Assembly: GCA_028279755.1 (NCBI GenBank)
Contig: JANQNB010000020.1
Location: 62,001-126,000 of the forward strand
Length of the DNA: 64,000 nucleotides
Direction of reading: 5' to 3'
Source: Candidatus Nanoarchaeia archaeon
Lineage (GTDB): Archaea; Nanobdellota; Nanobdellia; Woesearchaeales; UBA525
Positions 2 through 29,166 of this stretch are shown here, one piece after another (within the stretch, counting starts at the first letter, position 1; each line of letters opens with the position of its first letter). The notes beneath the pieces are model-generated. The model was given only the letters and a program-made list of their open reading frames with translations. It was not told where the DNA came from and made no database searches. The position numbers and the translations under genes were made by a program.

Positions 2-3000
2 ACGCCCAGCACCTTCCAGTCCTCCATAGCGCCGACGAGGATCTTCACGAATGGCACGCCAGCGACGTACACCTTCAACATGACCACTTTGTGGAGCGAA
101 AATCTCACTGCGGTGACGATACGGCTCAATTACCCGCTGGGCATCGGCCTGAACGCGACCTGTATCGCTGGCGGTACACCGACCGGGGATGGCGCGTGCA
201 CGCTCACGCAGTGGGCGAACGATACGAGCATCAGCTTCCAATTCAATATCAGCGCGAACACGACAGCGACACAAGGCGATTACTACATCAACGTCACAGT
301 CAACTATACCAATCCTGGCAACGAGGTACGCATATGGAACGAGCAGGAACCACGCCTTCTTGAGGTGCGTGAAGAGGGCATCATCGCCATCACGGTCACG
401 AGCAACCCGAGCAACCTGACCCGCGGCCAATCAGGCCTGATCACCGCCTATGTCAACAACACCGGCGCAGACAATGCGACGAATGTCACCGTGAATTATA
501 CCATGCCGAGCCCTGGCTGGACAAACACCAGCCCCCTGGATGTGCTCTTCCTGCAGATCAACGCCTCTGATACTGAATGGCACAATCTCAGCTTCACCAC
601 GAGCCAGAGCGCAGCGCTCGGCCCGCAGCAAGTACTGATAGAGTCAGGCAGCGACACTGGACAGAACGACTTCAAGTATGTCGACATCACGATCTACGCG
701 AACACGAGCACACGGAACGTCACGGTGAATGACACGAACGCGAGCCGTGGCGAGATGGTGCGTTTCAACGCAACGCTCCGGTACGACAATGGCACGCCGA
801 TCAGCGGCGCGACCATCAACTTCACCGACCTGACAGACAGCGTGAACATCGGCACTGCGGTGACGAACAGTCAGGGCATGGCTACCAGGACATGGCTGAT
901 CCCTGCCGGCGCGAGCTTCGGCGTGCACACGATCAATGCGAGCTATGCAGGCAGCGCCACATTGTACACGCTGCTCTCGTGGAACACCACCTTGCTGGAC
1001 ATCGGCCTGGTGCCGAACATCTCCAGCGTCTGGGCAAGCCCTGACCCGCAAGGCCAGGGCAGCAATGTGACGATCTACGCGAACGTCACTGACGACGACA
1101 CCTTGGATGACGTGCTCTTGACAGTGACAGCGCCGAACGGCACGGTCGTGCTGAACAACCAGCCGATGAGCTTCAGTGCAGGGCTGTACAATTATACCTT
1201 TGAACAGACCTGGTACAACGGCACCTACACCTATACTGTCAGGGCGAACGACAGCACTGGCAGCGCGAGTGAGCAAGGAAGCAGCTTCCTGATCGAGAAC
1301 GAGGCGTTCATCGCCATCAACGTGACTGCCGCGAACTTCAGCCAGAACGAGAATGTCACCCTGCAAGGCCACAGCGCGGGCTGGTGGTGGGCGAAAGATT
1401 GGAAATACCGCCAGAGCTTTACCATCACTGAGCAGGACGGCTTGAGCCTGAACGACACGCAAGTGAATATCACGATCGACACCGCGACGCTCGTGAGCCA
1501 GGGGAAGCTTGACGTGAACTGCACTGACCTGCGCCTTATCGACGAGAGCACCGGCACGAGCCTGTCATATTGGCGTGGCACTGACTGCAATACGAGCACG
1601 ACAGAGCTCTGGGTCAAGCTCGCGACCCTGGACGCGAACAGCGATGTGAACATCAGCATCTATTATGGCAACAGCGGCGCGTCGAGCGGCACGAATGTCT
1701 CGCGCGGCGAGATCTTCAGCGGCATCCAGGTGGTTGTGAGCGATTCCCTCGCCACCGGCGACCTGAACATCTCAGGCATGCACGACAACACGACCGTGTG
1801 CGTGAATGGTGCCGACTGCCATGTCCTGAACCAGAGCGACATCTACACGATCAGGGCCGCGAACCTGACGACCAACACGACCATCAGCGCGACAAAGCCC
1901 GTGGGCAGCGGCTTCCTTCTCACCGGCATCGGCAGTCCACTGACGCCCCTGGCCTGGATGGGGAGGAATTTCACCTACCCTGCGCCGCGTGACACGCAAA
2001 GCCTTGACGTGTACAGCCCGTACCAGGTGGCGAACGTCAGCCTGTACGATGGCTCGGGCTACGTCTCAAGCGTGATCGTCCAGCCAGGCCAGACAGCAGA
2101 GATCAACTACAATCCTGCGGACGGCCCAGGACAGCGACTGCTCGCGAACGCGAGCGTGCTCGCGCACTACGAAGGCGAGGCCGGCAACAACGATTACCTG
2201 CCGCTCTATCCTGAGAGCAACGGCCTCTACGGCATCGAGAGCGGATCCACGAATGGCGCGTATCGCGAGATCGCCTGTGGGGTCAACAACACCAACCTGA
2301 CAGTGTATTTCAGCAATGGCAGCACGTGGAACTGGCCAGACTGCGACGCCTACACCACCGTCGATCTCGGCGGCGGGTCAGGCGCAGGCAACGGCGTGAC
2401 CAGCTATGCAGTGGCAAACAACAGCCAGATCGGCGGCATGACTGCTGCAGACGGCGACGGGACAGAGGGCGTGCTCCACTTGCCGCTCGCAGCCATGGAC
2501 AATTACTATGTCCTGCCGCAGCCAGCCGAATACGTCAGCCTCGTCGCCAGGGAGCCGAGCACGTACTGCGAACTGCGCGACAGCGAAGGCCTGCTCATCG
2601 GCAGCAGCACCTCAACAAGCTACACGCCGCCCAGGCCGCAGGGCGTCATCCGCTTCACAGGCTCACCGATCGAGGCAGGCGCCAGGATCCAATGCGACAA
2701 TGACGTCTGGGCCTACTACGAGTCCTATGAAGAGGATGCAGAGACCATCCTGCTCGGCGCCAAGACCTGGCGGAACCGCGGACCGAGCCTGCCGAGCATC
2801 TCCAGCAGCGCAGAGGAAACCTACGGCAGCCTGCTCAGCAATACTGGCAGCACTGCCCTGCGCGGCCTCCTGCACTTCCTGATCCAGCGAAACATCAGTG
2901 GCGGCTGGCAGTGGTATGCCACGGTGCGCAACGACACGGCAAACAACACCATACAGACCCTGGCACCACAGGAATACCTGGACCTGGCAACAATGTGGAA

Positions 3001-6000
3001 CGAGTCGCCATGGGATTCTGGGAACAGCCCTGCTGGCAAGTATCGCGCGTATGTCGAGCTCGTCGCTCCAGACGGTCACATCCTCATGAGCACGACGCAA
3101 GAACTCTGGAACGCGAGCAGCTTCAACATCACGCCGCCGAACCTGGAACTCAACCTGACAAAGATCCTGGTCTATGACGTGACGAACAGCCTGAACAAGC
3201 ACACCTACAGCGCGAACCTGACCGGGAATTCGACCAACGACACGTTCATCATGATCAGCGGGCACGCCTACCGCATCGAGCTGCACGTGCTGAACACGGC
3301 GAACAGCACGCTCTGGAACCTCAGCAATATCGTCGTCACGCACGAGGACCTGAACGACACATGGATCATCGATGCGGCTGCTGACATCTGGTACCAGAAC
3401 GAAAGCGATGTGTCAGAACGGCTCGGCGGCACGTGGAACGGCACTGTCGAGTGGAACACCTCTGGCAAGGACGGGCTTGCGGATGTCAACACCACTGTGG
3501 TGTTCAGCTATGTCCTCAACCTCACAGGCGCGACCGCGGAAGACGTGCCAGTCCTCTTCCTGGTCGACGATCCAGCCTTGCAGATCCAGGACAACAGCAT
3601 CTACAGGATACAACTGCTCGACACGACACCGCCGCGGATCTACAACAACACGTACAACCTGACGAACACGAGCATCCTGCGAGGCGAGAACACGACCATC
3701 TTCGGACGCTGGGACGAGACATTGAGCAACGCCACGGTCGCGTACAACAGCACCTCGCCGCTTGTGCAGAATTACACGATCACCTTGCCAGAACCGAACC
3801 CGCGCAACTGGAGCAATCATACGATCGTCACCTCGGCATTGTGGACGCTTGGCACCCACGTTGCTAAGCTCTACGCTGCTGACGAGCAGGACAACTGGAA
3901 CCAGAGCCTCGAATACCTCAATTTCACGGTGTGGGGACTCGCGCAGGTGGTGAGCTCGAGTATCACAGACACGCTGCTGAACCTGAGCGACAATACCACG
4001 CTGACCTGCCGTGTCATGGACGACACGAACAGCCAGGCGATCCAGAACTACGTCGTCAGGTTCTACAACGGCACCGATTTCCTCGGCGATAACATCACCA
4101 ATAGCACAGGGCATGCCCGTTTCACCTACCAGGACTTCAGCGCTGGCACAGAGAACTTCACGTGCAACATCACGATGAACGCGTCGCGCTACTACCAGGT
4201 GGACAGCCAGAACCAGGCAAGCTACGAGCTGACAACCCTCGAGTCAGAGCCGCCCTGGGCTGACAATGTCCAGGCGAATGTCACGATCGCGCACAAGGGC
4301 GACACGGTTAAGCTCGCTGCCTTATGGCATGATAACTTCCAGCTCAACACTGCCACCTTGGCGACGAACGCATCAGGCAGCTGGGCGAATGTCAGCAATC
4401 TCTCGCTTTCCGGCACTGACGCTTGGGCGAATTTCTCCTACGTCATCCCGAACAATTTCGCGCCTGGCTATCTCGGCTGGCGGCAATACGGGAACGACAC
4501 AAGCAATAATGTCAACGTGACGCCTGACCAGAGCCTGGAGGTCTGGGGCTGGGCGATTGTCGAGAGCATCCTGCTCGAGCCAGCCTTCATCTACACCACG
4601 AACACGACAAACATCACCTGCCGTGTGGTCGACGAGCAGAACAACAGCGGCATCAGTGGCTATAATGTGAGCTTCTATAACGCGACCGACTATCTCGGCT
4701 GGAACACGACGAACGCGAGCGGACATGCCCGCTTCAACTACACCGATTACAGCTCTGGCATCGAAACCATGCGCTGCCAGATCGGGGACGAACCCACCTT
4801 GATGTACAACGCGTCCTCGCCGAACAACAGGACAGCTTCGCTCACGACAGGCGACAGCGGGGATATCCAGCCCCCGTATGTGATCAACGGCAACTACGGT
4901 CTCAACGACACGGTTGTCAAGAAGGGCGAGAATCTGACGATTTTCGCTGAATGGAACGAGTACATCAACCGGAGCGTAGCACGCTACAACACGACCGACC
5001 CGACGATCAGAGCGTTCAACGTCTCTTCGCCGTACACGAACAACTGGACCAACCACACGATCGAGACGAACTCGAGCTGGATCGTCGGCCGGCACGTGGC
5101 AAAGCTGGAAGCGACAGACCTGAGCAACAACACGAACACGACGGCTGAATACCTCTGGTTCAACGTGACTGCCACGTCGCAGATAACCTGGATCAGCCCG
5201 ACAGGCTCGGTCTACCCGACAAACATCAACCTCACCTGCCGCGTCACAGAAGAGGAGAACGGCCAGGGCATCGACAGCTACACTGTCTACTTCTACAACG
5301 ACACCGGCGGCCTGATCGGAACGCCCACGACAAACGCGACAGGGCATGCGAGAATCGAGTATGACACTGCAGGCTATGACGGCAACTATGATTTCAGCTG
5401 CCGCATCTTCTCAGCGCCGTCAAAGTTCTACTACATCGGCAGCAATTTCCAGGACGAGGAGACCCTGCTCTTCGACGGCGTGGAACCCAACATCCAGCTG
5501 AACGCGCCGCTCGATGGCAACATCACCAGCGAAACCACGCTCAACCTGAGCTTCACGGTGACTGACACGCACGATTCGACGCTCGACTGCAACGTGACAG
5601 TGGACGACAGTGTGATCAGCACGACGACCGCCACCAGCGGGGTGCAGAAGGACGTGGAGGACACGTTCGGCTACGGCCTGCACTATTGGAATGTCACGTG
5701 CTGGGACGATGTCGGGAATATCAACACCAGCGTGACCTGGAGCTTCAACATCACCAGCCCTGACTCGACAGCGCCGACACTGCAACTGCTCTCGCCTGAC
5801 GACGACGCGTACGTCAACAGCAGTACAGTGGTCTTCCAATACAACACCACTGACGATGTGGAAGTCCAGAATTGCAGCCTGTACATCGACGGCGTGCTGA
5901 ACCAGACAGATCCTGCGCCTGTCGAGGGCGGCGACTCCTTCACAGTCAACGGCCTTGCGGAAGGCAGCCACACGTGGTACGTCATTTGTCGGGACGCTTC

Positions 6001-7477
6001 GTTCAACGAGAACCAGTCAGAAACCAGAGTGTTCACTGTCGACACGATCGCGCCAGCCTCATTCGACCTGGTCACACCTGCGAACTACACAGTCACAGGC
6101 GATCTCACGCCCACGATGGAATGGCAGGAGACCACAGACGACAACTTCTGGAACTACACGCTCCAGGTGAGCAGCTCGCCGATCTTCAGCGCGGGCGTCA
6201 CGACCGAGTATGTCACGTTCACGATCAACGACACCAACCGGACGCTCCTGCCCTTGCAGATGAACAAGGCGTATTACTGGCGCGTCATCGCGAGCGACCG
6301 TGCAGGCTGGACCACGACAAGCGACAGCACCTACCAGTATATCACCGACGATCAGCCGCCGGTCGTGCTCCTGATCAGCCCGCCGGACGGCGACAATGAT
6401 CCTGACGGCAACCTCACGCTCGTCTATCAGCCAAACGACAATAACATCTCCAATTGCTCGTTGTACACGAACATCACCGGCGTGTGGCAGGAATACGCGA
6501 ACGACACTGCGGTGGAAGCGCGCCAGCACAACAACTTCACGCTCACCGGCTTGCCGCTTGGGAGCAACTTCACCTTTATCTGGAACGTGCTCTGCTATGA
6601 CAGTCTCGGGTACAGCGACTGGGCTGTCAGAAACTGGACAGTGCACATCCAGGACTTCAACGAGACCCATGATAACATGACGATCCCCACGAACGCGACA
6701 GTGACGAACGCCTTGCCGTACACACGCAGCGTGATCCCTGACAATCCGATCGACCTTATCGCAGGCGGCCAGCAGATCGTGAACTGCACTGCCAATGTCT
6801 CTGACGACAACGGCGCAGCCGACATCATCGACGCGCAGGGCTGGCTGTTCAGGGACGGTCTGGCACGCTTCGACCCTGACAATGCCACCAATCATTACAC
6901 GAATGGCAGCTGCGGCGCCTGCACAACAATCAATGAAACCTCGGCAAGATGCACGTGCTCATTCAACATGTGGTACTATGCAGAGCCGGGCTGGTGGCGC
7001 TGCCATGTCGCTGGCGTTGACAATGTCGGCGTGGGCAGCAGCTTCTGGAACTTCACATACCTCAACCAGTTACAGGCGGTTGATGTCCGTCCCACCCTGC
7101 TCGATTACGGTAACGTGCTCGGCGGCGTCCCCTCCGGAGAAGAGAATGTCTCAGTCATCAATTTCGGCAATGTCGCGCTTGATGTTGATCTCTGGGCGTA
7201 TGGAGCGACGCAAGGCGACAATCTTTCCATGGAATGCAAGAACGGCGGGAACATCACGGTGAGCGCTGAGCGTTTCAGCACCAGCCAGGGCACTGCCTAC
7301 GCGTCAATGACGCCCTTGACTGGCGAGCTTGCGACAGCGCCGACAGCGAATTTGAACGTGCCCCCGCAGACAGGACCGGACAATTCCAGCCTGCCACTCT
7401 ACTGGCGGATCCAGTCAGGCGCAGGCGCTGTCGGCGAATGCAATGGCACCATCGTCTTCCACGCACAGATCGGATAA
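2..7477 (+). CDS. giant secreted/surface protein, 5'-truncated by window edge; DUF2341-like domain plus many Ig/beta-sandwich repeats
   Basis: Frame is open from base 2 upstream of the listed ATG at 80 (TPSTFQSSIAPTRIFTNGTPATYTFNMTT...). Very many N-x-S/T sites; 'WKYRQSFTITEQDGLSLNDTQVNITI...NISIYYGNSGASS' is DUF2341-like; three similar 'N.TCRV...V.FYN.T...GHAR..Y' repeats. Confidence 0.85.
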   Translation, partial: TPSTFQSSIAPTRIFTNGTPATYTFNMTTLWSENLTAVTIRLNYPLGIGLNATCIAGGTPTGDGACTLTQWANDTSISFQFNISANTTATQGDYYINVTVNYTNPGNEVRIWNEQEPRLLEVREEGIIAITVTSNPSNLTRGQSGLITAYVNNTGADNATNVTVNYTMPSPGWTNTSPLDVLFLQINASDTEWHNLSFTTSQSAALGPQQVLIESGSDTGQNDFKYVDITIYANTSTRNVTVNDTNASRGEMVRFNATLRYDNGTPISGATINFTDLTDSVNIGTAVTNSQGMATRTWLIPAGASFGVHTINASYAGSATLYTLLSWNTTLLDIGLVPNISSVWASPDPQGQGSNVTIYANVTDDDTLDDVLLTVTAPNGTVVLNNQPMSFSAGLYNYTFEQTWYNGTYTYTVRANDSTGSASEQGSSFLIENEAFIAINVTAANFSQNENVTLQGHSAGWWWAKDWKYRQSFTITEQDGLSLNDTQVNITIDTATLVSQGKLDVNCTDLRLIDESTGTSLSYWRGTDCNTSTTELWVKLATLDANSDVNISIYYGNSGASSGTNVSRGEIFSGIQVVVSDSLATGDLNISGMHDNTTVCVNGADCHVLNQSDIYTIRAANLTTNTTISATKPVGSGFLLTGIGSPLTPLAWMGRNFTYPAPRDTQSLDVYSPYQVANVSLYDGSGYVSSVIVQPGQTAEINYNPADGPGQRLLANASVLAHYEGEAGNNDYLPLYPESNGLYGIESGSTNGAYREIACGVNNTNLTVYFSNGSTWNWPDCDAYTTVDLGGGSGAGNGVTSYAVANNSQIGGMTAADGDGTEGVLHLPLAAMDNYYVLPQPAEYVSLVAREPSTYCELRDSEGLLIGSSTSTSYTPPRPQGVIRFTGSPIEAGARIQCDNDVWAYYESYEEDAETILLGAKTWRNRGPSLPSISSSAEETYGSLLSNTGSTALRGLLHFLIQRNISGGWQWYATVRNDTANNTIQTLAPQEYLDLATMWNESPWDSGNSPAGKYRAYVELVAPDGHILMSTTQELWNASSFNITPPNLELNLTKILVYDVTNSLNKHTYSANLTGNSTNDTFIMISGHAYRIELHVLNTANSTLWNLSNIVVTHEDLNDTWIIDAAADIWYQNESDVSERLGGTWNGTVEWNTSGKDGLADVNTTVVFSYVLNLTGATAEDVPVLFLVDDPALQIQDNSIYRIQLLDTTPPRIYNNTYNLTNTSILRGENTTIFGRWDETLSNATVAYNSTSPLVQNYTITLPEPNPRNWSNHTIVTSALWTLGTHVAKLYAADEQDNWNQSLEYLNFTVWGLAQVVSSSITDTLLNLSDNTTLTCRVMDDTNSQAIQNYVVRFYNGTDFLGDNITNSTGHARFTYQDFSAGTENFTCNITMNASRYYQVDSQNQASYELTTLESEPPWADNVQANVTIAHKGDTVKLAALWHDNFQLNTATLATNASGSWANVSNLSLSGTDAWANFSYVIPNNFAPGYLGWRQYGNDTSNNVNVTPDQSLEVWGWAIVESILLEPAFIYTTNTTNITCRVVDEQNNSGISGYNVSFYNATDYLGWNTTNASGHARFNYTDYSSGIETMRCQIGDEPTLMYNASSPNNRTASLTTGDSGDIQPPYVINGNYGLNDTVVKKGENLTIFAEWNEYINRSVARYNTTDPTIRAFNVSSPYTNNWTNHTIETNSSWIVGRHVAKLEATDLSNNTNTTAEYLWFNVTATSQITWISPTGSVYPTNINLTCRVTEEENGQGIDSYTVYFYNDTGGLIGTPTTNATGHARIEYDTAGYDGNYDFSCRIFSAPSKFYYIGSNFQDEETLLFDGVEPNIQLNAPLDGNITSETTLNLSFTVTDTHDSTLDCNVTVDDSVISTTTATSGVQKDVEDTFGYGLHYWNVTCWDDVGNINTSVTWSFNITSPDSTAPTLQLLSPDDDAYVNSSTVVFQYNTTDDVEVQNCSLYIDGVLNQTDPAPVEGGDSFTVNGLAEGSHTWYVICRDASFNENQSETRVFTVDTIAPASFDLVTPANYTVTGDLTPTMEWQETTDDNFWNYTLQVSSSPIFSAGVTTEYVTFTINDTNRTLLPLQMNKAYYWRVIASDRAGWTTTSDSTYQYITDDQPPVVLLISPPDGDNDPDGNLTLVYQPNDNNISNCSLYTNITGVWQEYANDTAVEARQHNNFTLTGLPLGSNFTFIWNVLCYDSLGYSDWAVRNWTVHIQDFNETHDNMTIPTNATVTNALPYTRSVIPDNPIDLIAGGQQIVNCTANVSDDNGAADIIDAQGWLFRDGLARFDPDNATNHYTNGSCGACTTINETSARCTCSFNMWYYAEPGWWRCHVAGVDNVGVGSSFWNFTYLNQLQAVDVRPTLLDYGNVLGGVPSGEENVSVINFGNVALDVDLWAYGATQGDNLSMECKNGGNITVSAERFSTSQGTAYASMTPLTGELATAPTANLNVPPQTGPDNSSLPLYWRIQSGAGAVGECNGTIVFHAQIG

Positions 7478-15503: not shown

Positions 15504-15551
15504 ACATCTTCGAAATCCTTTTAAAACGTCTTCAGTCTTCTGTTTTCTCAA

Positions 15552-15682
15552 GGGCCTGTTGCTCAGTCTGGATACCTGAGTAGGGCAATTAGAGCGCCGG
15601 TCTTATATGACCCTGCATCGCCAGCAATGGTGCAGAGCTCTGAGCGAGCCGGAGGTCGCGGGTTCAAATCCCGCCAGGCCCA
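15552..15682 (+). tRNA. tRNA-Ile(UAU) with BHB intron at 37/38 (15608-15646) and an extra 17-nt D-loop insertion
   Basis: Acceptor GGGCCTG/CAGGCCC + discriminator A; T-arm GCGGG-TTCAAAT-CCCGC; D-stem GCTC/GAGC; anticodon stem CCGGT/GCCGG; spliced anticodon loop CTTATAA (anticodon TAT, 15604-15606). Confidence 0.85.
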
Positions 15683-15684
15683 TT

Positions 15685-17124
15685 ATGGGTGAGTATACTT
15701 TCCTGTGGAGCAATACGCACCTCATGATGGTTGCGGAGAACAATCCCTGGAGCTTCCGCGACGTCAAGACACTCGGCTCGCTATCGACAGGAACGTTCGG
15801 CTTTGTCGAGCAGCGACGCATCCATTCGTTCCAGCACAACGATGGGCTGCTGAAACAGCACGAGGCAGGGAAGAAGTTTCTTGACGCAGCGTTCGCCGCT
15901 TCCTGGTTTGCTGAAGTCGAAGAAGTATTGGCACAGCACCGCGCGTTCTATCAGGAACTCTGGGCTGTCGACATGGAGGAAGCCAGCGATCAAGAATTGC
16001 TGGACTTGCTATCGCAAATCAACGAGTATTGGCGCGTGACGATCAGCTATTTCCGTGTGAGCCAGGCAGAATGGACCAAAGCGCTGGTGGAGATGCTCTT
16101 CAAGCGCCTGGCAACACACGATGTCGTCGGACTCGAAGCGCAGAATCTCTTGTCAGTCCTGAGCACTCCTGATGAGCTCGACGCGATCAACAAGGAAGAG
16201 CTCGCCCTGATCCAGCTCTGCTGTAAAAAAGAAGTGAGTGACGAGCACATCATCGCTCATCTTGAGCACTACCCCTGGATCTTCGCGAACCGTTTCACAT
16301 TGCAGGAATGGATCGACGAGTTCCAGGCGCGACTGGCGACAGTCAAGGCCGAAGGCGACACCGCGTTGAAAAAACGCGCCGCAGAGATGATCCTGAACAA
16401 GAAAGAACTGCATAAGGAACAGGAATCGCTCTATCAACGCTTCGATGATCCAGAGCTTGAACATTGCGGCAGGACACTTGCGCGACACGGCCTGACCCGC
16501 GTCATGATCAAAGAGCTCTGGGCTGGCGAGTTCTACTGGGTCAAGCTGCAGGAAGAACTGGTGAAACGCACCGGTGTCGATGCAGAAACCTTGTTCTTCT
16601 GCTATCGCGAAAAAGAGATCAAGGAACTCCTGCTGAACAAGAAGAAACTCAGCGAGGAAGAGATCGCTCGCCGCAAGGAGGTCTTTGTCTTCCGGTTTGA
16701 TGGCAAGGAGATCGCATTCTATTCAGGAAAGGAAGCGCGCGAGCTTGCTGAAGCAAACATCGGCGATTACCTGCACCCTGACAAGGATATGGAACTGAAA
16801 GGGCAGCCAGCGAGCCCGGGTAAAGTGCAGGGCCGTGCGATCGTGGTGAGCATCAACGATCCTGCGGACGAGCAGCGCGTGCGCAAGAAATTCAGGAAAG
16901 GCGACATCCTTGTCTCGCAGATGACACAGCCTGGGATGATGGATCTGGTCGCGAAAGCCGCTGGCATCGTGACTGATGAAGGCGGCATCGTGAGCCATGC
17001 AGCCATAGTCTCGCGCGAGTTCAAGATCCCCTGCGTTGTCGGCACGCACCTCGCCACAAAAGTCATCAAGGAGGGTGACATGATCGAAGTTGATGCTGAC
17101 GAGGGCATCGTGAGGAAAACATGA
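15685..17124 (+). CDS. protein with C-terminal PEP-utilising-enzyme mobile (phosphohistidine swivel) domain, paralogue 1
   Basis: C-terminus 'KGQPASPGKVQGRAIVV...GDILVSQMTQPGMMDLVAKAAGIVTDEGGIVSHAAIVSREFKIPCVVGT..A'. Start trimmed from 15607, which lies inside the tRNA. Confidence 0.85.
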   Translation: MGEYTFLWSNTHLMMVAENNPWSFRDVKTLGSLSTGTFGFVEQRRIHSFQHNDGLLKQHEAGKKFLDAAFAASWFAEVEEVLAQHRAFYQELWAVDMEEASDQELLDLLSQINEYWRVTISYFRVSQAEWTKALVEMLFKRLATHDVVGLEAQNLLSVLSTPDELDAINKEELALIQLCCKKEVSDEHIIAHLEHYPWIFANRFTLQEWIDEFQARLATVKAEGDTALKKRAAEMILNKKELHKEQESLYQRFDDPELEHCGRTLARHGLTRVMIKELWAGEFYWVKLQEELVKRTGVDAETLFFCYREKEIKELLLNKKKLSEEEIARRKEVFVFRFDGKEIAFYSGKEARELAEANIGDYLHPDKDMELKGQPASPGKVQGRAIVVSINDPADEQRVRKKFRKGDILVSQMTQPGMMDLVAKAAGIVTDEGGIVSHAAIVSREFKIPCVVGTHLATKVIKEGDMIEVDADEGIVRKT

Positions 17125-18485
17125 AATTCAAGAAAGTGTTCCGGGAAAGCGGTTCCATCTTTGTCTTCGAAACCTCGCATGATGTCTATCGTGTGCGTCG
17201 CAACATTTTCGGCAATCATTACAGTAATTTGATTGGCATTTCCAGAGATCGAATCTTCACCGCATACTATGAAGAGAGCGAACTCGAACATTCAAGGGAG
17301 TTGGGGAAGGAATTGCTCAAGCCAGAAGTGCATGAGAAATACTTTGAACAGTGTGAAGCGCACTGCAAAGAAGCGCGTGCTTTTGCAGAAGAGTTGCGCA
17401 CGATGAAGCTCGACGCGCTTTCAGGAGAAGAACTTGCGGAACTTTTTGATACTTACTATAATCATTTTCTGACAACGATAGCGCTCTATCAGCTCACAGA
17501 TACGGATAATTTTCTTCATGCAGCGCAGCAAGTTTTGCGAAGCCTTCTTTCTGACGAAGAAGTCCAAGTGATGCTGCGTGATAATGAAGAGTTCTATGAA
17601 GATCTCAAATGGAAGCTCGCAGTGCTTGAAAAGAAAAAGACTGTTGTTGATTACTTGCTTCACTTCCCGCATAAATGTCATAATCATTATGATTACGAGG
17701 AGTTGGAAGAGCACTATTTGGAAGAGTTCGCACAACAGGTTCCTGAAAACGTGCACCAAGAAATAGCAGTCTTGGAAAAGGAATCACAGGACTTGGCGGC
17801 TGCACAAGCAAAGATCGTGCAAAAGCATCTGGAGGTGAAGCTTCCTGCAATGATTATCAGAAAAGCAGGTCAGTTTCGCTTCAGGCTGAAGAAGTATTGG
17901 GCTGGATACGAGTACCTCTGCGACCCGCTCTGGCGTGCCATCGGTGCCAGGTTGGCGATACCCTTGGAAGATATTGTGTGGACGCACCTCTCCGAGGAAT
18001 TGAAAGATTGTTTGCGAGCAGGAAAGCCACTTGCTCCAGAAGAGATTGCGCGTCGGAAGAAAGGATTTGCGCTCCTCCTCATTAATGGGGAAAAATCTTT
18101 CACCACAGACGTTGACAAGGTTGAAGCCACGTACTTGCAGGCAGAACAAGAGCAGGAGGTGCGAGGCACCTGTGCGCACCCTGGCCATGTTGAAGGGACT
18201 ATTCTGAATATTCCGGTCACGTCTCTCGCTGAGTTCTCCGAAGCAATGGAAGAGGCCAAAGGAGATATTCTCGTGACGCCGATGACACAGCCCTATGTTG
18301 TTCCGTATCTCAAGCGTTTCAAGGCGATCGTGACAGATCAAGGCGGGATTGTCTGCCATGCAGCGATTATTAGTCGCGAATATCGTATCCCCTGTGTGGT
18401 TGGCACGAGCAACGCGACTGAGCTGCTCAAGACTGGCGACAAGGTACGTGTTGAAGCGGACAAGGGCGTTGTGCGTAAGCTCTAG
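17121..18485 (+). CDS. protein with C-terminal PEP-utilising-enzyme mobile domain, paralogue 2
   Basis: 'GDILVTPMTQPYVVPYLKRFKAIVTDQGGIVCHAAIISREYRIPCVVGTSNATELLKTGD'; ATGA overlap with paralogue 1; related helical N-terminal region. Confidence 0.85.
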   Translation: MKFKKVFRESGSIFVFETSHDVYRVRRNIFGNHYSNLIGISRDRIFTAYYEESELEHSRELGKELLKPEVHEKYFEQCEAHCKEARAFAEELRTMKLDALSGEELAELFDTYYNHFLTTIALYQLTDTDNFLHAAQQVLRSLLSDEEVQVMLRDNEEFYEDLKWKLAVLEKKKTVVDYLLHFPHKCHNHYDYEELEEHYLEEFAQQVPENVHQEIAVLEKESQDLAAAQAKIVQKHLEVKLPAMIIRKAGQFRFRLKKYWAGYEYLCDPLWRAIGARLAIPLEDIVWTHLSEELKDCLRAGKPLAPEEIARRKKGFALLLINGEKSFTTDVDKVEATYLQAEQEQEVRGTCAHPGHVEGTILNIPVTSLAEFSEAMEEAKGDILVTPMTQPYVVPYLKRFKAIVTDQGGIVCHAAIISREYRIPCVVGTSNATELLKTGDKVRVEADKGVVRKL

Positions 18486-21218: not shown

Positions 21219-23005
21219 CCGCCTTCTCTCGCGCATGGCCGGCAGAGCACTTGCCGCCAGCGGAACGACTGCAAGTCTTTGACGAACTCAAGACACGCGT
21301 GCACAAGGAGTTCGCGCATCTCGATACAGCGCTCGGCCAGGGCTATATCACGCTCGACGAGTACCGTTTCTACCTCAAGCAAGTCTATGACGGCAAGGAC
21401 GAGCGCGAGGTCATGGACCTGATCAGGCGCGAGGAAGCGACGATCCGTGAAAGCATCAGCGCGGCACGTGGCAGCAAGATGCCAGCGGCGGCAGCGTTCA
21501 TGATATTCCTCGTGCTCACCGGGCTCGCCGGGGTCATTCTCGTGCTCAATCCAGGACAGGGCATCACTGGCTTTGTCACCTACGATGCGACAGAAGAAGT
21601 CAGCGTACCTGTCGACCTCCTGTTCACCGAACAGGGTAATGCGTCACTCAATATCACCAACGTCACGGGCCTGAAAGCAAGCGGCATCCTGACTGACGGC
21701 AGCGCCAGCGTGTATCTGCGATTCGCTGATCAACGCTTGCTTGTCTGGGAAGGAGAAACCAGCGTGCCAGTGTATAGCGTGCGTACTGACAAGGAAAGCT
21801 ACGCTCTCAACAGCACGGTGAACGTGACAGTCACGCCTGCAAACGTGAGCTACACCCTCTGGCTGACAGATGAGGCTGGCGAGAAGACCTTGGTGCAGGA
21901 ACAATTCGTGACGACCACGCCTGGCGACTTTGTCCTCGACGCTTTGATCAACGATACCGGCAATGTCACGAAAGTGAGCACGAGCTTCACGGTCAGGAAC
22001 GACACGAACGCGAGCAATGACGTCTTGCGCGAAGAGGAAGCGGCACAACTCGCGTTTGCTGCGACGTGTGTCGACAGCTGTGCCTTCAACCAGACCAATG
22101 AGACCTTGCTGCTTGACGTCGAGCTCAGCGAAGGCTCCAGACTTGAGATCAGCGAAGTCATCAGCGTGCACGAGCGCGCGAACAACGCGCCAGCCATGAC
22201 GCAGGAACTGCCTGACATCGAACTGCGCATCGGCGAGCATGTCGAGATCGAACTCCTGGATTACTTCGAGGATCCTGACGGCGATATGATCACCTTCGAC
22301 TTCATGAATGTCGGCGGCGTCGACATCACCTTGGACGAGAGCACGCTGTTCATCGAAGGGCTTGAAGCAGGCATCGGCCAGAGCATCGTCTACGCCTCAG
22401 ACCTCTACGAGCTGAGCCAGAGCAACCTGTTCACGATCACTGTGCTTGGGAGCAACACGAGCAATGTCACTAATTCCACCAACACCACACAAAACAACAC
22501 TAATTCCACTGTGGTCACACCACCGGTTGTGATCAACGATACCAATATGACAGTCAACGAGACACTCGACTGCTCGAACCCTGATCCCAATGCGCGGCCG
22601 ATTGAATGCCTGCAGCAGGAAAGCCCGGTCTACTTCCCGCCGCAGGCGATCTATATCACCACGACCGGCAGGACGCCGATCGCGCGCATAACGCCGATCG
22701 GTAACCTGCTCTTGACTGGTGAGGTGCACGAGCAGGCGAGCTTCACCGCGAACACGCGCGATTACGTGATCGGCTACGAGAACGAGTTCGGGCGCTTCAC
22801 CCCGACGATCTGGTTCGACAGCGACACCGGCAACCTGTACCTGACTGGCCGCTTATACGAGGAGCGCATCAGCGAAGTGCCGCCGCCAGGCAGCTATGCC
22901 TTGCGGAACAGGAAGGGGATAACGCTCGCCTGGGCGAACCAAGGGCGTGGCGATCTCTATGTGCGCGGCAATGTCATCCCTTACAGAACGACGATAATTG
23001 AATGA
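21215..23005 (+). CDS. TM-anchored surface protein with cytoplasmic helical N-terminus and cadherin-like region
   Basis: Helical N-terminus, TM 'AAAAFMIFLVLTGLAGVILVL', then N-glycosylation-rich beta region with 'IELRIGEHVEIELLDYFEDPDGDMITFDF'. Confidence 0.8.
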   Translation: MTAFSRAWPAEHLPPAERLQVFDELKTRVHKEFAHLDTALGQGYITLDEYRFYLKQVYDGKDEREVMDLIRREEATIRESISAARGSKMPAAAAFMIFLVLTGLAGVILVLNPGQGITGFVTYDATEEVSVPVDLLFTEQGNASLNITNVTGLKASGILTDGSASVYLRFADQRLLVWEGETSVPVYSVRTDKESYALNSTVNVTVTPANVSYTLWLTDEAGEKTLVQEQFVTTTPGDFVLDALINDTGNVTKVSTSFTVRNDTNASNDVLREEEAAQLAFAATCVDSCAFNQTNETLLLDVELSEGSRLEISEVISVHERANNAPAMTQELPDIELRIGEHVEIELLDYFEDPDGDMITFDFMNVGGVDITLDESTLFIEGLEAGIGQSIVYASDLYELSQSNLFTITVLGSNTSNVTNSTNTTQNNTNSTVVTPPVVINDTNMTVNETLDCSNPDPNARPIECLQQESPVYFPPQAIYITTTGRTPIARITPIGNLLLTGEVHEQASFTANTRDYVIGYENEFGRFTPTIWFDSDTGNLYLTGRLYEERISEVPPPGSYALRNRKGITLAWANQGRGDLYVRGNVIPYRTTIIE

Positions 23006-26000
23006 AAATGAAAAGAGGAATGAGAGGCCTCATGCTGTTACTCTTCATCCTGGCTGTGCCTCTCGTCTTTGCGGCGAACGATCCAGGCCACGACACGCTC
23101 TATATCGAGGAGAGCGGCGAGCAGAACCTCACCGGGAGCTTCAACATCAGCGACTGGCTGCGCGTCGCCAACCTGTTCTACAGCGACTATCTCGATATCC
23201 AAGGCAATGGCACCCAGCCAGGGAATTCACGAGCCGAGATCTACGCGACGGCAGGGAACGGCCTGTACTTCAACGCGCCTGGCAATTTCTACTTCGGGAC
23301 AGGCGACGGCACCATGGTATACATCGGCACTTCTGGCGTGAGCCTGAACGTGAGCAGCAACATCTACGCTGGCGGCGTGATCTACCAGGATGATGTTGCA
23401 GTCTGCCTGTCGAACGGCACGAACTGCATTTCAGGAACAAACGAAGGCAATGTGACGAGCATTATCGCAGGGAACGGCATCTCCGTCGATCAGGCAATCG
23501 GTGACGTCACAGTCTCCACTAATGCGGCTACGTGCAGCGGCGGCCAGTACAGTTACTGGGACGGAAACTCTTGGGAATGCGGCACGATCAGCGGTTCCTC
23601 AAGTGCTGGAGGGTGGACGAACACTTCCACCGTTACTTCCACAGACTTGCACGTTAACATCACGACCGGCAATCTTACTGTGATTAATGGCGACCTCATT
23701 GTCGGAAAGACCACTGTATCCGCAGGCCTTGGCGCCAACTCAGTCATTGAATCGGATGACTATATTGTCGCTGGCAATAACAAAGGATTTATCTCACTCA
23801 CTTCGGGAGGAACAGCAACAACGGTGATGCGTATTAGTTCGAGCGATCATTCGGAGTATTTTGCTCTTGGTGATACGATTTTCTATTCTGACAGTACGCA
23901 AGAGATGATCATTAAGGATGGGGGAACTGTCGGTATAGGACCCAACAATGATCCAGGAGCACAACTCGACGTACAAACTGAAAGCAATGCAGTAAAAGGA
24001 TTGGTTGTGCAAGGTGCGGCTTCGCAAAACGCGAACCTTACCGAGTGGCAGAACAGTACTGGTGATGCTTTGGCGTATGTTGATGCTGCTGGCGACCTCT
24101 TTGCACAGGATGGGCAAGTCTGTACAGCTGCAAACGGTTTGTGCAACCAGACAGAGTTCTCGGGAAGTGCGGCTGGTGGTGATTTGTCAGGAACATATCC
24201 TAACCCGAGTGTGCGTGATGATAGTCATGAGCTTGATGCGGCTAATATTACGAGTGGTACGTTGGCGATTGCTCGTGGCGGTACTGGTGCTGCGACGACG
24301 AGTCAGAATTATGCGTTTATTGGTCCGACGAGTGGTGGTGGTGCGCCGAGCTTCCGGGCGTTGGTTGATGGCGACATCCCGGATACGATTACTGCGTCGA
24401 ATTATGTCCGTACGAGTACGTGGACTGATCATGATAATTATCCGAGTGCGTGCGGTGCTGGTGAGGCTGTGCAGGGGCTTGGTGACACGCTGACGTGCAT
24501 CAGTCTGAGCAGTTCCTCCAGTGCCAGCGGCTGGACGAACACGAGCACCCTAACTTCGACAGACCTGAACGTGAACATCACAAGCGGAAACCTCACTGTG
24601 TCTGGTGGTTTCGCGAGCATAGGGACAGATATACTCAACAATGAACTGGAGGTGTCAGGCTCGACTTCAGGGAATATCTTCGCGCGTGTAACAAACCTGA
24701 ACACGCTCGGCGAATCAGGTTTGGTTCTCGGAGAGACCCTTGATGGAGCTACGCCGTTCTATATGCAGCGATATGGTTCCACAGATGCTTCGCGACCGAA
24801 TGATGTCGAATTTATAGCATCCGGATCAGGAGCCGACATAGCGCTCATGCCAACAGATTATGTGGGTATCGGCACGACTGATCCGAACACGACGCTGCAC
24901 GTCGCCGGGGACATCAATGTCACTGCCGGGAATGATATCTGCATTAATGGAGATACTTGTTTGGGGATAGTGGCTGCTGCTGACGGGAATGTCTCTGGCA
25001 GCGGTACTGCGTCGTATGTCCCGTACTGGAGCGATGGGGCTGAGAACCTCGGAGACAGCAATGCGCTCTTTGACGGCAGCAATTTCGATATTGCGTCAGG
25101 CAACTTGGAAGTCGGCGGTACCACGCGGATATCCTCTGCAGGTGCTGGCACCTTTGCCAGCGCGAGCCTGAGCGGCGATATCGATCTCAACAGCAATGAC
25201 CTCTCAGACATCGGCAATCTGTACACGAATGACGCGAGCGGGAATTTCTTCAGCGGCGGTTGTAGCAACAACGAGCACATCACTGGGATCAGTTCGTCAG
25301 GCGTTATCAGTTGCGCAGCGAATAGCGGCAGTTCTGCTGCCGGTGGCTGGACGAACAACAGTCAGAATACGACGACGACCTTGGATGTTGGGATCGGGAC
25401 AACGAATCCTGAAGCGGCGTTGCATGTGAGCGGTGGTGACATCCTCTTGGATAACACGTATAGTATTCGTTGGGATGATTCTGGCGGAACGCCCACTGAC
25501 ATCATCACTCTGAGCGCGGCTGACAATCTTGCGATCGATGCGCCGTCGGGTGGTGATTTTTATTTCAATGGCGCGTCGACGTTCGCGCTTAAGTCTGGTG
25601 GCAATGTTGGCATTGGGCAGGTGACGCCCTTGGCGAAGTTGCACGTGCAGGGCACTGCTGATGATGAAGTTGTTATAGTGAGAGCGTTTTCGAGTCAGAC
25701 TGCTAATCTTCAGGAGTGGCAGAACAGTACTGGGAGTGCTTTGGCCTACGTTGATCCGTCAGGAGACCTCTTTGCACAGGACGGGCAAGTCTGTACAGCT
25801 GCAAACGGTTTGTGCAACCAGACAGAGTTCTCGGGAAGTGCGGCTGGTGGTGATTTGTCAGGAACATATCCTGATCCGAGCGTCCGTGATGATAGTCATG
25901 AGCTTGATGCGGCTAATATTACGAGTGGCACGCTTGCGATTGCTCGTGGCGGTACTGGCGCTGCGACGACGAGTCAGAATTATGCGTTTATCGGCCCGAC

Positions 26001-29000
26001 GAGTGGTGGTGGCGCTCCGAGCTTCCGTGCCTTGGTTGATGGCGACATCCCGGATACGATTACTGCGTCGAATTATGTCCGTACGAGTACGTGGACTGAT
26101 CATGATAATTATCCGAGCGCGTGCGGTGCAGGCACTGCAGTGCAGGGAATCGGCGACACGCTGTCGTGTATCAGTCTTGGCAGTTCTTCTGCCGGCGGAT
26201 GGACGAACACGAGCACGTACACGTACACGAACCTGGAAGTGAATGTGAGCGATTTCTTCTGGGCGAACAGCACCGCTGTTGGTATCGGAACGAAGAGTCC
26301 GCAAGCAGACCTGCATATTCTCGCTACTGGAACGGCTGGAACTCCGAGCATCGCTTCGAATTTCGTTGTGCAACGAAGCGGTGTGGCAACGCATAACGCG
26401 AGGATGGCCCTCATTTCAGGCAATGACGCTAACAGCTTGTTCTACTTTGGAGACACTGACAGCGAAATACGAGGCCGGCTCATGTACAACCACAGTGGTG
26501 ACGCGCTCTCGCTCTGGACAGCGAGTGCGAGAGCTTTGACGATCGATTCCAGTCAGCGGGTGGGTATCGGAACAAACAGCCCTGAGACACTCCTGCACTT
26601 GCTAAGCGATAATCCGATCATCAGGCTGAATGACAGCACTGACGATTCAGAAATGCAGATCCGCTTGGACAGCGGTGTGTTCGAGATCGGCGATGGCAGC
26701 TTGGCGCCGTTGAGGATTGAGACTGGCGCGCCGTCGAACGCCTTCTACATCGAGGCAGATGGAGATATTGGCTTTGGCACGACGAATCCGGAACAGCCGA
26801 TCGACATCGAAGGAACGACTGCTGCAATCCGTCTGAACGACACGGACGGCAGCTATGCCTATGATATCAAAAGCACTGGCACCGTATTCCAGATCTCCAG
26901 GGACGGCAGCGGAGTCAACGAGCTTGTGATGGACAACGTGGGAAACGTCACGGTGTACACTGACGTCTGCATCAGCGGCGGCAAGTGTCTGGGTAGCACG
27001 GGAACCGGCAGCGGTTCGGTCAGCGGCACCGGCACGCAGAATTACCTGACGAAATGGAGTGCTGGCGGTGCTGACATTGAGGACAGCGCCATCTACGAAA
27101 GCGGTGGCAGCGTGGGCATCGGGACGGCCAACCCTTCGACTATACTTGATGTTGTTGGTAGTACAGACACATCTACTGCTCTGCTCGTTCTCAACAATAC
27201 TGGAGACAGTGGAAACCTTATCAAAGGATTCAATGATCTGAACAGAAATATCTTTGCTGTCAATCAAAATGGAGCTGGAGATGGTTTAATCAATCTTGCA
27301 AACGCGAGCGAAGATATTACAGTTAAGCTTGTCTCCAACGGTGATTCCTACTTCACTGGCGGCAATGTCGGTATAGGAACGTCTTCTCCGTCTTATCCGC
27401 TCGAGGTAACAGACACTGCCACCAATATCCTCATTAATGGGACATCGACCGGCCTTCTTATGGTCGACCGTGATGCAACTGCTGATCAACGATTCATGCA
27501 GCTCATGGACAATGATGGGAAGTTCTACATCCGAGCCTTGGATGATTCGTATGCACTGACCTACAACGGCTTCGTTTTGGACATGTCCAATGGTTATGTC
27601 GGTATCGGGACAGACAGTCCGTCAAAAACGCTGGAACTCGCAGCGAATGACGTTCGCTTGCTCTTCAACGACACGAGCTCGAGCGGCGCGCTGATCAACG
27701 ACTGGCAGATCACGATCAACGATGCAGACGGCGGATCAGCCAATAAGTTTGCAATCGATGATCTCACAGGAGGAACGACGCCCTTGATCATCGAGAATGC
27801 CACACCATCCAACACACTCTACATAGACAGAGCGGGTTATATTGGTATTGGGACAAATAATCCGTCAGAAGCGCTCGATATTGTCGGAAATTTCATCAAG
27901 ATTGATAACAATGCTGATGCGGGAGGCGGTTTGGTGATAGATACTGGCAGCACTGCTTCGCAGAATTCGCAGATCATCTTCCGCGACCAAGGTTCCAGTG
28001 ATTGGTATTTGAGGAAAACCACAAATAATGATTTTGATATCTATAGTGGCGATTATGGAGATACTGTCTTTTTCATCGATAACACAACAGGCAACATCGG
28101 CATTCGGACAAGTGATCCCTCACAAGATCTGCATGTGCATGATAGTGCCGCAGCGAATATCTATGTGAACAGTAGTGGGGCTAATGCCAATGTGCTCATC
28201 GACAGAGGTGACTCGACTGACGAGGCGCGAGTGATGTTTTACACTGACGGAAGTGCACTAGTGGCGCTTGGTCTGGATTCTAACTCCGACAATTACCACA
28301 TAGGAAATAGTGGTTTCGCTACCAAATGGATGACGATCAACACCACCACTGGCTATGTGGGCATCGGGACGAGCACTCCAGACAACATGTTGAATTTGGA
28401 AGGTACGGACGGTAGAGTCAGGTTTACTGACACCGACACGCGCGCAATTCTTGATCTGATGAACAACATCTCGACACCTGCTGCTGATACCGAAGGAGGG
28501 CGGGTGAACTTCATGGCGAACGATGCGAATGGAAACCCGACCGTTTATGGGAGGATTGCTGGATGGGTGGCTGATGATACGGAGTCCTCAGAGGATGGTT
28601 ATTTGACATTCCACGTCACCAATGACGGGACTAATTCCCCTGAAGTGATGCGCATCCTTGATTCAGGCTACGTTGGCATCGGGACGACACAACCGAATAG
28701 CACCTTGCACGTGCAGGGCAACATCAATGTCTCCGGACCTGGTAACATCTACTACGAAGGCAACCTCACTGGCTATGGAGCGGACATTGCAGAGAAGATT
28801 TTTGCACATGGCGAGCTCGAAGCCGGCGATGTCGTGATCATCAGCAATACCGGCGACGAAACAGTCGAATTGTCATGGCAAGCGTACGACACGCGCGTCG
28901 CAGGCATTGTCTCAACCGATCCGAGCCATCTGATCAGCGCTGACGCAGGCGACGTGCCGCTCGCACTCTCAGGACGTGTTCCAGTCAAAGTCACGATGGA

Positions 29001-29166
29001 GAATGGCGCTATCGCACGCGGCGATCTGCTCACGACAAGCTCAACGCCTGGCCACGCCATGCGCTGTTCCTCACGAATCGAATGCACTGGCGCGATCGTC
29101 GGTAAGGCGTTGGAATCACTCAATACTGAAACCGGTTTAATCACAGCGCTCGTGGTGTTAGGATGA
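23002..29166 (+). CDS. giant tail-fibre-like surface protein with repeated 'VGIGT..P...LHV' units and C-terminal 'DIAE...GRVPVKV..ENG.I..GD.LT.S' domain
   Basis: Signal peptide MKMKRGMRGLMLLLFILAVPLVFA; more than ten GIGT/P-type units; C-terminus 'GADIAEKIFAHGELEAGDVVIISN...LALSGRVPVKVTMENGAIARGDLLTTSSTPGHAMR...GKALE'. Confidence 0.85.
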   Translation: MKMKRGMRGLMLLLFILAVPLVFAANDPGHDTLYIEESGEQNLTGSFNISDWLRVANLFYSDYLDIQGNGTQPGNSRAEIYATAGNGLYFNAPGNFYFGTGDGTMVYIGTSGVSLNVSSNIYAGGVIYQDDVAVCLSNGTNCISGTNEGNVTSIIAGNGISVDQAIGDVTVSTNAATCSGGQYSYWDGNSWECGTISGSSSAGGWTNTSTVTSTDLHVNITTGNLTVINGDLIVGKTTVSAGLGANSVIESDDYIVAGNNKGFISLTSGGTATTVMRISSSDHSEYFALGDTIFYSDSTQEMIIKDGGTVGIGPNNDPGAQLDVQTESNAVKGLVVQGAASQNANLTEWQNSTGDALAYVDAAGDLFAQDGQVCTAANGLCNQTEFSGSAAGGDLSGTYPNPSVRDDSHELDAANITSGTLAIARGGTGAATTSQNYAFIGPTSGGGAPSFRALVDGDIPDTITASNYVRTSTWTDHDNYPSACGAGEAVQGLGDTLTCISLSSSSSASGWTNTSTLTSTDLNVNITSGNLTVSGGFASIGTDILNNELEVSGSTSGNIFARVTNLNTLGESGLVLGETLDGATPFYMQRYGSTDASRPNDVEFIASGSGADIALMPTDYVGIGTTDPNTTLHVAGDINVTAGNDICINGDTCLGIVAAADGNVSGSGTASYVPYWSDGAENLGDSNALFDGSNFDIASGNLEVGGTTRISSAGAGTFASASLSGDIDLNSNDLSDIGNLYTNDASGNFFSGGCSNNEHITGISSSGVISCAANSGSSAAGGWTNNSQNTTTTLDVGIGTTNPEAALHVSGGDILLDNTYSIRWDDSGGTPTDIITLSAADNLAIDAPSGGDFYFNGASTFALKSGGNVGIGQVTPLAKLHVQGTADDEVVIVRAFSSQTANLQEWQNSTGSALAYVDPSGDLFAQDGQVCTAANGLCNQTEFSGSAAGGDLSGTYPDPSVRDDSHELDAANITSGTLAIARGGTGAATTSQNYAFIGPTSGGGAPSFRALVDGDIPDTITASNYVRTSTWTDHDNYPSACGAGTAVQGIGDTLSCISLGSSSAGGWTNTSTYTYTNLEVNVSDFFWANSTAVGIGTKSPQADLHILATGTAGTPSIASNFVVQRSGVATHNARMALISGNDANSLFYFGDTDSEIRGRLMYNHSGDALSLWTASARALTIDSSQRVGIGTNSPETLLHLLSDNPIIRLNDSTDDSEMQIRLDSGVFEIGDGSLAPLRIETGAPSNAFYIEADGDIGFGTTNPEQPIDIEGTTAAIRLNDTDGSYAYDIKSTGTVFQISRDGSGVNELVMDNVGNVTVYTDVCISGGKCLGSTGTGSGSVSGTGTQNYLTKWSAGGADIEDSAIYESGGSVGIGTANPSTILDVVGSTDTSTALLVLNNTGDSGNLIKGFNDLNRNIFAVNQNGAGDGLINLANASEDITVKLVSNGDSYFTGGNVGIGTSSPSYPLEVTDTATNILINGTSTGLLMVDRDATADQRFMQLMDNDGKFYIRALDDSYALTYNGFVLDMSNGYVGIGTDSPSKTLELAANDVRLLFNDTSSSGALINDWQITINDADGGSANKFAIDDLTGGTTPLIIENATPSNTLYIDRAGYIGIGTNNPSEALDIVGNFIKIDNNADAGGGLVIDTGSTASQNSQIIFRDQGSSDWYLRKTTNNDFDIYSGDYGDTVFFIDNTTGNIGIRTSDPSQDLHVHDSAAANIYVNSSGANANVLIDRGDSTDEARVMFYTDGSALVALGLDSNSDNYHIGNSGFATKWMTINTTTGYVGIGTSTPDNMLNLEGTDGRVRFTDTDTRAILDLMNNISTPAADTEGGRVNFMANDANGNPTVYGRIAGWVADDTESSEDGYLTFHVTNDGTNSPEVMRILDSGYVGIGTTQPNSTLHVQGNINVSGPGNIYYEGNLTGYGADIAEKIFAHGELEAGDVVIISNTGDETVELSWQAYDTRVAGIVSTDPSHLISADAGDVPLALSGRVPVKVTMENGAIARGDLLTTSSTPGHAMRCSSRIECTGAIVGKALESLNTETGLITALVVLG
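24043..24541 (+). repeat. ~0.5 kb internal direct repeat, copy A (copy B 25714-26210)
   Basis: Near-identical DNA from gagtggcagaacagtact through ...ggctggacgaacac; protein 'LFAQDGQVCTAANGLCNQTEFSGSAAGGDLSGTYP.PSVRDDSHELDAANITSGTLAIARGGTGAATTSQNYAFIGPTSGGGAPSFRALVDGDIPDTITASNYVRTSTWTDHDNYPSACGAG' in both. Confidence 0.92.
25714..26210 (+). repeat. ~0.5 kb internal direct repeat, copy B
   Basis: See copy A; offset 1671 bp (in frame). Confidence 0.92.

Follow-up and report, generated by a model that had tools for sequence, protein, structure and literature searches.

We detected a tRNA-Ile gene with a UAU anticodon, made up of three exons and two introns (direct reading and ARAGORN), at positions 15552-15682 of the forward strand of the window, i.e., the whole 64,000-nucleotide stretch of contig JANQNB010000020.1 analyzed here. 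The host genome belongs to the Woesearchaeota (NCBI kingdom Nanobdellati, DPANN), with an assembly of 1.49 Mb in 24 contigs. We consider it highly probable that the gene encodes a functional tRNA-Ile(UAU) with two predicted introns that serves TiaS-free AUA decoding. The distinction of AUA from AUG is a classic decoding problem, solved with lysidine in bacteria, agmatidine in archaea, and inosine plus pseudouridine in eukaryotes. We infer that the tRNA is spliced, charged with isoleucine and used to decode AUA: the transcript would shed two introns, of 17 nt in the D-loop and 39 nt in the anticodon loop, through the BHB endonuclease and ligase to yield a 75-nt tRNA, and its encoded UAU anticodon would read AUA, replacing the usual archaeal pair of tRNA-Ile2(CAU) and TiaS (agmatidine). 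This arrangement is inherited across the phylum and common to other DPANN groups. The gene contains the following features:

15519..15525 (+), candidate promoter of its own, a TATA-box-like TTTTAAA 27-33 nt upstream of the tRNA (direct reading)
15552..15571 (+), exon 1: 5' strand of the acceptor stem, 5' strand of the D-stem, and D-loop to G19 (direct reading, ARAGORN)
15572..15588 (+), predicted intron 1 in the D-loop at 19/20, 17 nt, ATACCTGAGTAGGGCAA (relatives, ARAGORN after removal)
15589..15607 (+), exon 2: remaining D-arm, anticodon stem 5' strand CCGGU, and loop CUUAUA (direct reading, ARAGORN)
15604-15606 (+), anticodon UAU, positions 34-36, in exon 2
15608..15646 (+), intron 2 at 37/38, 39 nt, with a BHB (direct reading, ARAGORN, phylum-wide position)
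15609..15612 (+), intron positions i2-i5, GACC, complementary to GGUC at exon positions 29-32 (covariation of i4 with 30)
15647..15682 (+), exon 3: A38, anticodon stem 3' strand, variable region, T-arm, acceptor stem 3' strand, and A73

The acceptor stem is GGGCCTG/CAGGCCC, the discriminator is A73, and CCA is not encoded. The anticodon stem CCGGU/GCCGG contains one U-G pair and carries the spliced loop CUUAUAA, and the 75-nt spliced product, GGGCCTGTTGCTCAGTCTGGTTAGAGCGCCGGTCTTATAAGCCGGAGGTCGCGGGTTCAAATCCCGCCAGGCCCA, folds into a cloverleaf (-35.1 kcal/mol). The BHB of the 37/38 intron has a 4-bp central helix, CUUA/UGAG, and 3-nt bulges UAU and CGA. Neither ARAGORN nor Rfam (gathering threshold) returned a match to the gene in the raw window. 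When the D-loop insert alone was taken out, ARAGORN called a tRNA-Ile(tat) with the exact gene ends and the 39-nt intron correctly placed, and when both introns were taken out it called a clean 75-nt tRNA-Ile(tat). The same tRNA gene, spliced at the same predicted position, occurs in more than 100 related genomes; this recurrence and the exact ARAGORN call indicate that the assignment is not due to chance. The initial annotation had described the acceptor stem, T-arm, anticodon stem, loop CUUAUAA, a 5' exon ending at 15607 and a 3' exon starting at 15647, all of which are present at these coordinates. It had also placed a UAU anticodon and a 39-nt intron (15608-15646) at 37/38, in agreement with ARAGORN once the D-loop insert is removed. 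The gene structure given there is real, and its coordinates and 37/38 splice sites are confirmed, but the 17-nt D-loop intron had been overlooked. A TTTTAAA-like box is also present at a comparable distance upstream of the tRNA-Ile(UAU) genes of several relatives. Just downstream of the tRNA, two adjoining ORFs (window 15687-18485) both end in the PEP-utilising mobile domain PF00391, and no Pfam family matched their remaining parts. The window also encodes two giant ORFs, at 80-7477 (2465 aa, with no NCBIfam family matched) and 23002-29166 (2054 aa).

Comparative anatomy indicates that the D-loop insert is a second intron. With the insert left in, the D-loop would measure 27 nt. The insert sits between G19 and U20 with the 3' motif GGGCAA|TTAGAGC, and taking it out restores the consensus D-loop AGTCTGGTTAGAGC. 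In relatives, inserts that differ in length and sequence interrupt the gene at this very point, directly behind C-U-G-G (G19), and the majority terminate in GGGCAA or something very similar ahead of U-U-A-G-A-G-C (e.g., L062, L097, L102, L112, L116, and L170 share the position and the 3' motif). Most relatives have no insert, and their D-loop is the plain AGYCTGGTTAGAGC or differs little from it. The insert could alternatively be an enlarged D-loop retained in the mature tRNA, as its BHB is relaxed, with a possible central helix between its GGGC and G15-U17a, bulges GGA and AAU, and a weak outer helix. However, the variation of the inserts at exactly 19/20, their common 3' motif and the standard D-loop of the insert-free relatives make such an enlargement very improbable, and these same features, together with the consensus restored on removal, argue for an intron. 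Extra introns or inserts were also seen in the tRNA-Ile(UAU) genes of other relatives, in the anticodon stem (L060, L098, L203, and L229), the variable region (L133) and the T-loop (L339, L341, L344, and L350).

The survey of the phylum used two strict patterns (CTTATA, an intron and the 3' half), and false matches were removed by hand. A UAU tRNA with a 37/38 intron was detected in this way in at least 118 of the 236 genomes. Among 30 near-complete genomes with no pattern match, 18 do have a tRNA-Ile(UAU), which had often escaped the patterns owing to one more intron, in the T-loop or at another site. In total, at least 136/236 genomes of the phylum carry the tRNA, and the 37/38 intron is almost always present; a single intronless copy was seen (L052). 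Pattern matches with mismatched stems turned out to be other tRNAs, genes that by chance lie behind a CTTATA, or UAU tRNAs with a further intron. A scan of named records covered 84,980 named species, and among the matches listed were Woesearchaeota, Pacearchaeota, Nanoarchaeota, Aenigmatarchaeota, Micrarchaeota and Iainarchaeum. Also among the matches listed were one MAG each of Altiarchaeota and 'Marsarchaeota' and two Guaymas MAGs of 'Thermoproteota'; single MAGs may be misbinned or misnamed. Three further listed matches, in bacteria, were rejected as chance matches on account of their broken stems (L208, L222, and L236).

The TiaS FLD domain PF08489 was not found in the host genome (93.7% complete), in any of the 236 genomes of the phylum (207 of them at least 90% complete), or in the 45 searched genomes behind named records carrying tRNA-Ile(UAU). 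The same search was positive in four archaeal control genomes (Methanocaldococcus, Haloferax, Sulfolobus, and Methanosarcina). Likewise, the TiaS kinase domain PF22641 was found in 0/193 genomes of the phylum. The absence of tiaS predicted in the initial annotation is thus borne out by both domain searches. The codon itself is in use: in 25 window ORFs, selected by length, AUA makes up 77 of 928 Ile codons.

The initial annotation had also predicted the absence of a CAU tRNA-Ile2, and the CAU tRNAs inspected agree with this. The one CAU tRNA found in the host (L014, minus strand, G000:C7:193979-194105) is of the elongator Met type and has an intron of 53 nt, and no tRNA-Ile2(CAU) was found; however, the host tRNA list is incomplete, as the initiator tRNA-Met was found neither by the model nor by patterns in this 93.7% complete assembly, probably owing to additional introns or a gap in the assembly. 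Of the CAU matches in 59 relatives, some were extracted and read whole, the rest being judged from the 3' half, and the extracted ones are all initiator or elongator Met, except for one bacterial-type initiator. The latter (L303, G119:C68), considered as a candidate Ile2, is contamination in a same-order assembly, and a second candidate, in G143, is an elongator Met (L358). Rfam finds 41 tRNAs in the host genome, about half of which exceed the intronless length and carry introns. The introns of the elongator tRNA-Met(CAU) genes (L014, L293, L297, L298, and L299) share a core of UGA-NNGAG-hairpin-CGAUGA, which resembles a k-turn or box C/D element and might possibly act as a cis guide for C34 methylation.

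The tRNA-Ile(UAU) gene could instead be a pseudogene or an unspliced remnant, with AUA read by a TiaS-independent tRNA-Ile2(CAU) lost in assembly gaps. Both the failure of ARAGORN and Rfam to recognize the raw sequence and the completeness of 93.7% would fit this explanation. On the other hand, the tRNA consensus bases are all intact, the stems are compensatory, the gene is kept phylum-wide, and near-complete relatives are also without TiaS, and we regard a pseudogene as extremely improbable. The searches support AUA reading by a UAU tRNA independent of TiaS, as proposed in the initial annotation. What does not stand is its status as an exception, as the trait is phylum-wide and present in other DPANN groups. 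Rather than an exception of two species, a UAU tRNA in the absence of TiaS seems to be the norm for a large share of archaea.

The 37/38 intron shows conserved pairing with the exon. Across relatives, it ranges from 17 to more than 55 nt, and it is conserved in the BHB strand (UAAG-like, pairing with C32-A35) and in its start, U-G-R-C, the remainder being free in length and sequence. The BHB central helix is complete in 130/160 sequences. In the anticodon stem, the intron start pairs with the 5' side, with i2-C32, i3-U31 and i4-30 all paired in 148 of the 160 sequences and i5-29 paired as well in 93. The i4-30 pair covaries (APC z 5.1, rank 6 of all column pairs by APC-corrected mutual information, with kinship ignored), only slightly less than the mature-stem pair 30-40, and is preceded by 28-42, 29-41, 27-43, 30-40 and 26-44. 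Of 14 sequences with C at position 30, 12 have G at i4; of 146 with G at this position, 144 have C at i4 and none has G (Fisher p = 4e-17, tree ignored). The 12 compensated cases are spread over six families and more than one order. The intron-exon pairing and its covariation are thus shown by the alignment of relatives. RNAalifold returned the BHB only from the intron alignment, and a longer pairing of i7-i11 with 22-26 (CGYUC/GAGCG), noticed by eye, was dropped as its covariation is absent.

Pairing of i2-i5 with 29-32 would form an alternative hairpin with the loop UUAUAU before splicing, leaving U33-A37 in the hairpin loop. This pairing and the mature stem are mutually exclusive at 30-31, so that the precursor would have two conformations, with about equal predicted mean energies (-12.4 kcal/mol for the alternative vs -11.5 for the BHB). 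We infer a pre-splicing hairpin that would expose U34 and U36 and, more weakly and by analogy, that the paired intron may serve U34 modification. An archaeal tRNA-Ile mutated to UAU is reported to bind AUG too (Mandal 2014, as cited in PMC7694415), and the UAU tRNA would thus need something restricting it. The hairpin, or the helix of anticodon and intron in the BHB, could aid anticodon maturation, e.g., an intron-dependent change of U34 that blocks misreading of AUG. A functional role for the intron is nevertheless a tentative proposal, and one relative with an intronless UAU tRNA (L052) speaks against it. Box C/D and H/ACA guide functions were also considered and rejected, given the shortness of the intron and its lack of a box pair; in an in-cis H/ACA layout, the guide strands would also run in the wrong order.

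Another possibility, which we hold with similar reserve, is that the pairing serves splicing or folding order rather than modification: the first intron bases would occupy the stem's 5' strand while the 3' exon is still being made, and the BHB would then form and be cut. The two near isoenergetic, mutually exclusive conformations and the transcription of the stem 3' strand after the intron are consistent with this order. However, for the other 37/38 tRNA introns of the host that were parsed, the best parse gives no full i2-i4 match, which makes a general folding need unlikely, and a need restricted to tRNA-Ile(UAU) would be left without explanation. A functionless inherited trace of an ancient intron with low turnover, with the covariation due to shared ancestry, is rather unlikely. 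The sequences are related and the Fisher test ignores the tree, yet C30 with G at i4 recurs across families and orders, the rest of the intron varies freely, and the APC-corrected i4-30 signal approaches that of 30-40. Returning to modification, we hypothesize, as a speculative extension to DPANN as a whole, that the intron could be a functional cis element whose paired 5' end would present U34 and U36 to a modifying enzyme before splicing. Prokaryotes would then have a third, intron-based solution to the AUA/AUG problem, either convergent with the eukaryotic one or ancestral to it.

In surveys covering 167 and 217 genomes, Nanoarchaeum and Korarchaeum are the only archaea reported to have a tRNA-Ile(UAU) (PMC6000648, PMC8450103), and it is regarded in published surveys as two stray archaeal exceptions. 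A search of the open-access literature (subscription papers and preprints being outside its scope) returned no paper joining DPANN, tRNA and TiaS. What is new on this known UAU type is the phylum-wide covarying intron element and the D-loop intron. If the UAU tRNA is the rule in a very large TiaS-free archaeal radiation, the archaeal AUA rule needs restating, and the covarying element offers a direct, testable lead as to how an unmodified or specially modified U34 avoids AUG. Besides, the multi-intron tRNAs of DPANN represent a blind spot, since they can escape default finders.

As in Nanoarchaeum equitans and Korarchaeum cryptofilum, a UAU anticodon replaces the CAU tRNA-Ile2, and the K. cryptofilum gene also has one intron (PMC6000648, PMC8450103). 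While those cases were reported as species-specific gains (2 of 167 or 217 genomes), the trait described here extends over a whole phylum and other DPANN groups. It is also set apart from those reports by a conserved intron element and, in the window gene, by a second intron in the D-loop. A precedent for a tRNA intron serving anticodon modification is the archaeal tRNA-Trp intron with its box C/D guide (PMC4090602, PMC11408192); in contrast, the tRNA-Ile(UAU) intron has 39 nt, and no arrangement of box C and box D was seen in it. A further parallel concerns the eukaryotic tRNA-Ile(UAU), which shares the isoacceptor, the intron position, and an anticodon paired or framed by intron bases; in yeast, pseudouridines 34 and 36, made by Pus1, depend on its 37/38 intron, which also prevents ncm5U34 (PMC4090602, PMC11408192). 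In contrast to this Pus1 system, the present case is known from gene sequence, and BHB-type splicing is predicted. The TruA/Pus1 family PF01416 was not found in the host genome (93.7% complete), with 12 of 14 control genomes positive and the Sulfolobus control silent, so that the role of a Pus1-type enzyme would have to fall to another protein. This absence counts against a direct copy of the yeast system, and so does the tRNA-Ile(UAU) of Cyanidioschyzon merolae, in which pseudouridine 34/36 seems to be absent or partial (PMC9602550). The latter tRNA has three introns, in the D-, anticodon- and T-arms (PMC9602550), the same arms as those found here, T-loop inserts occurring only in relatives of the window gene. 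C. merolae, unlike the host of the window gene, is a eukaryote, and this likeness may reflect convergence or shared insertion hot spots.
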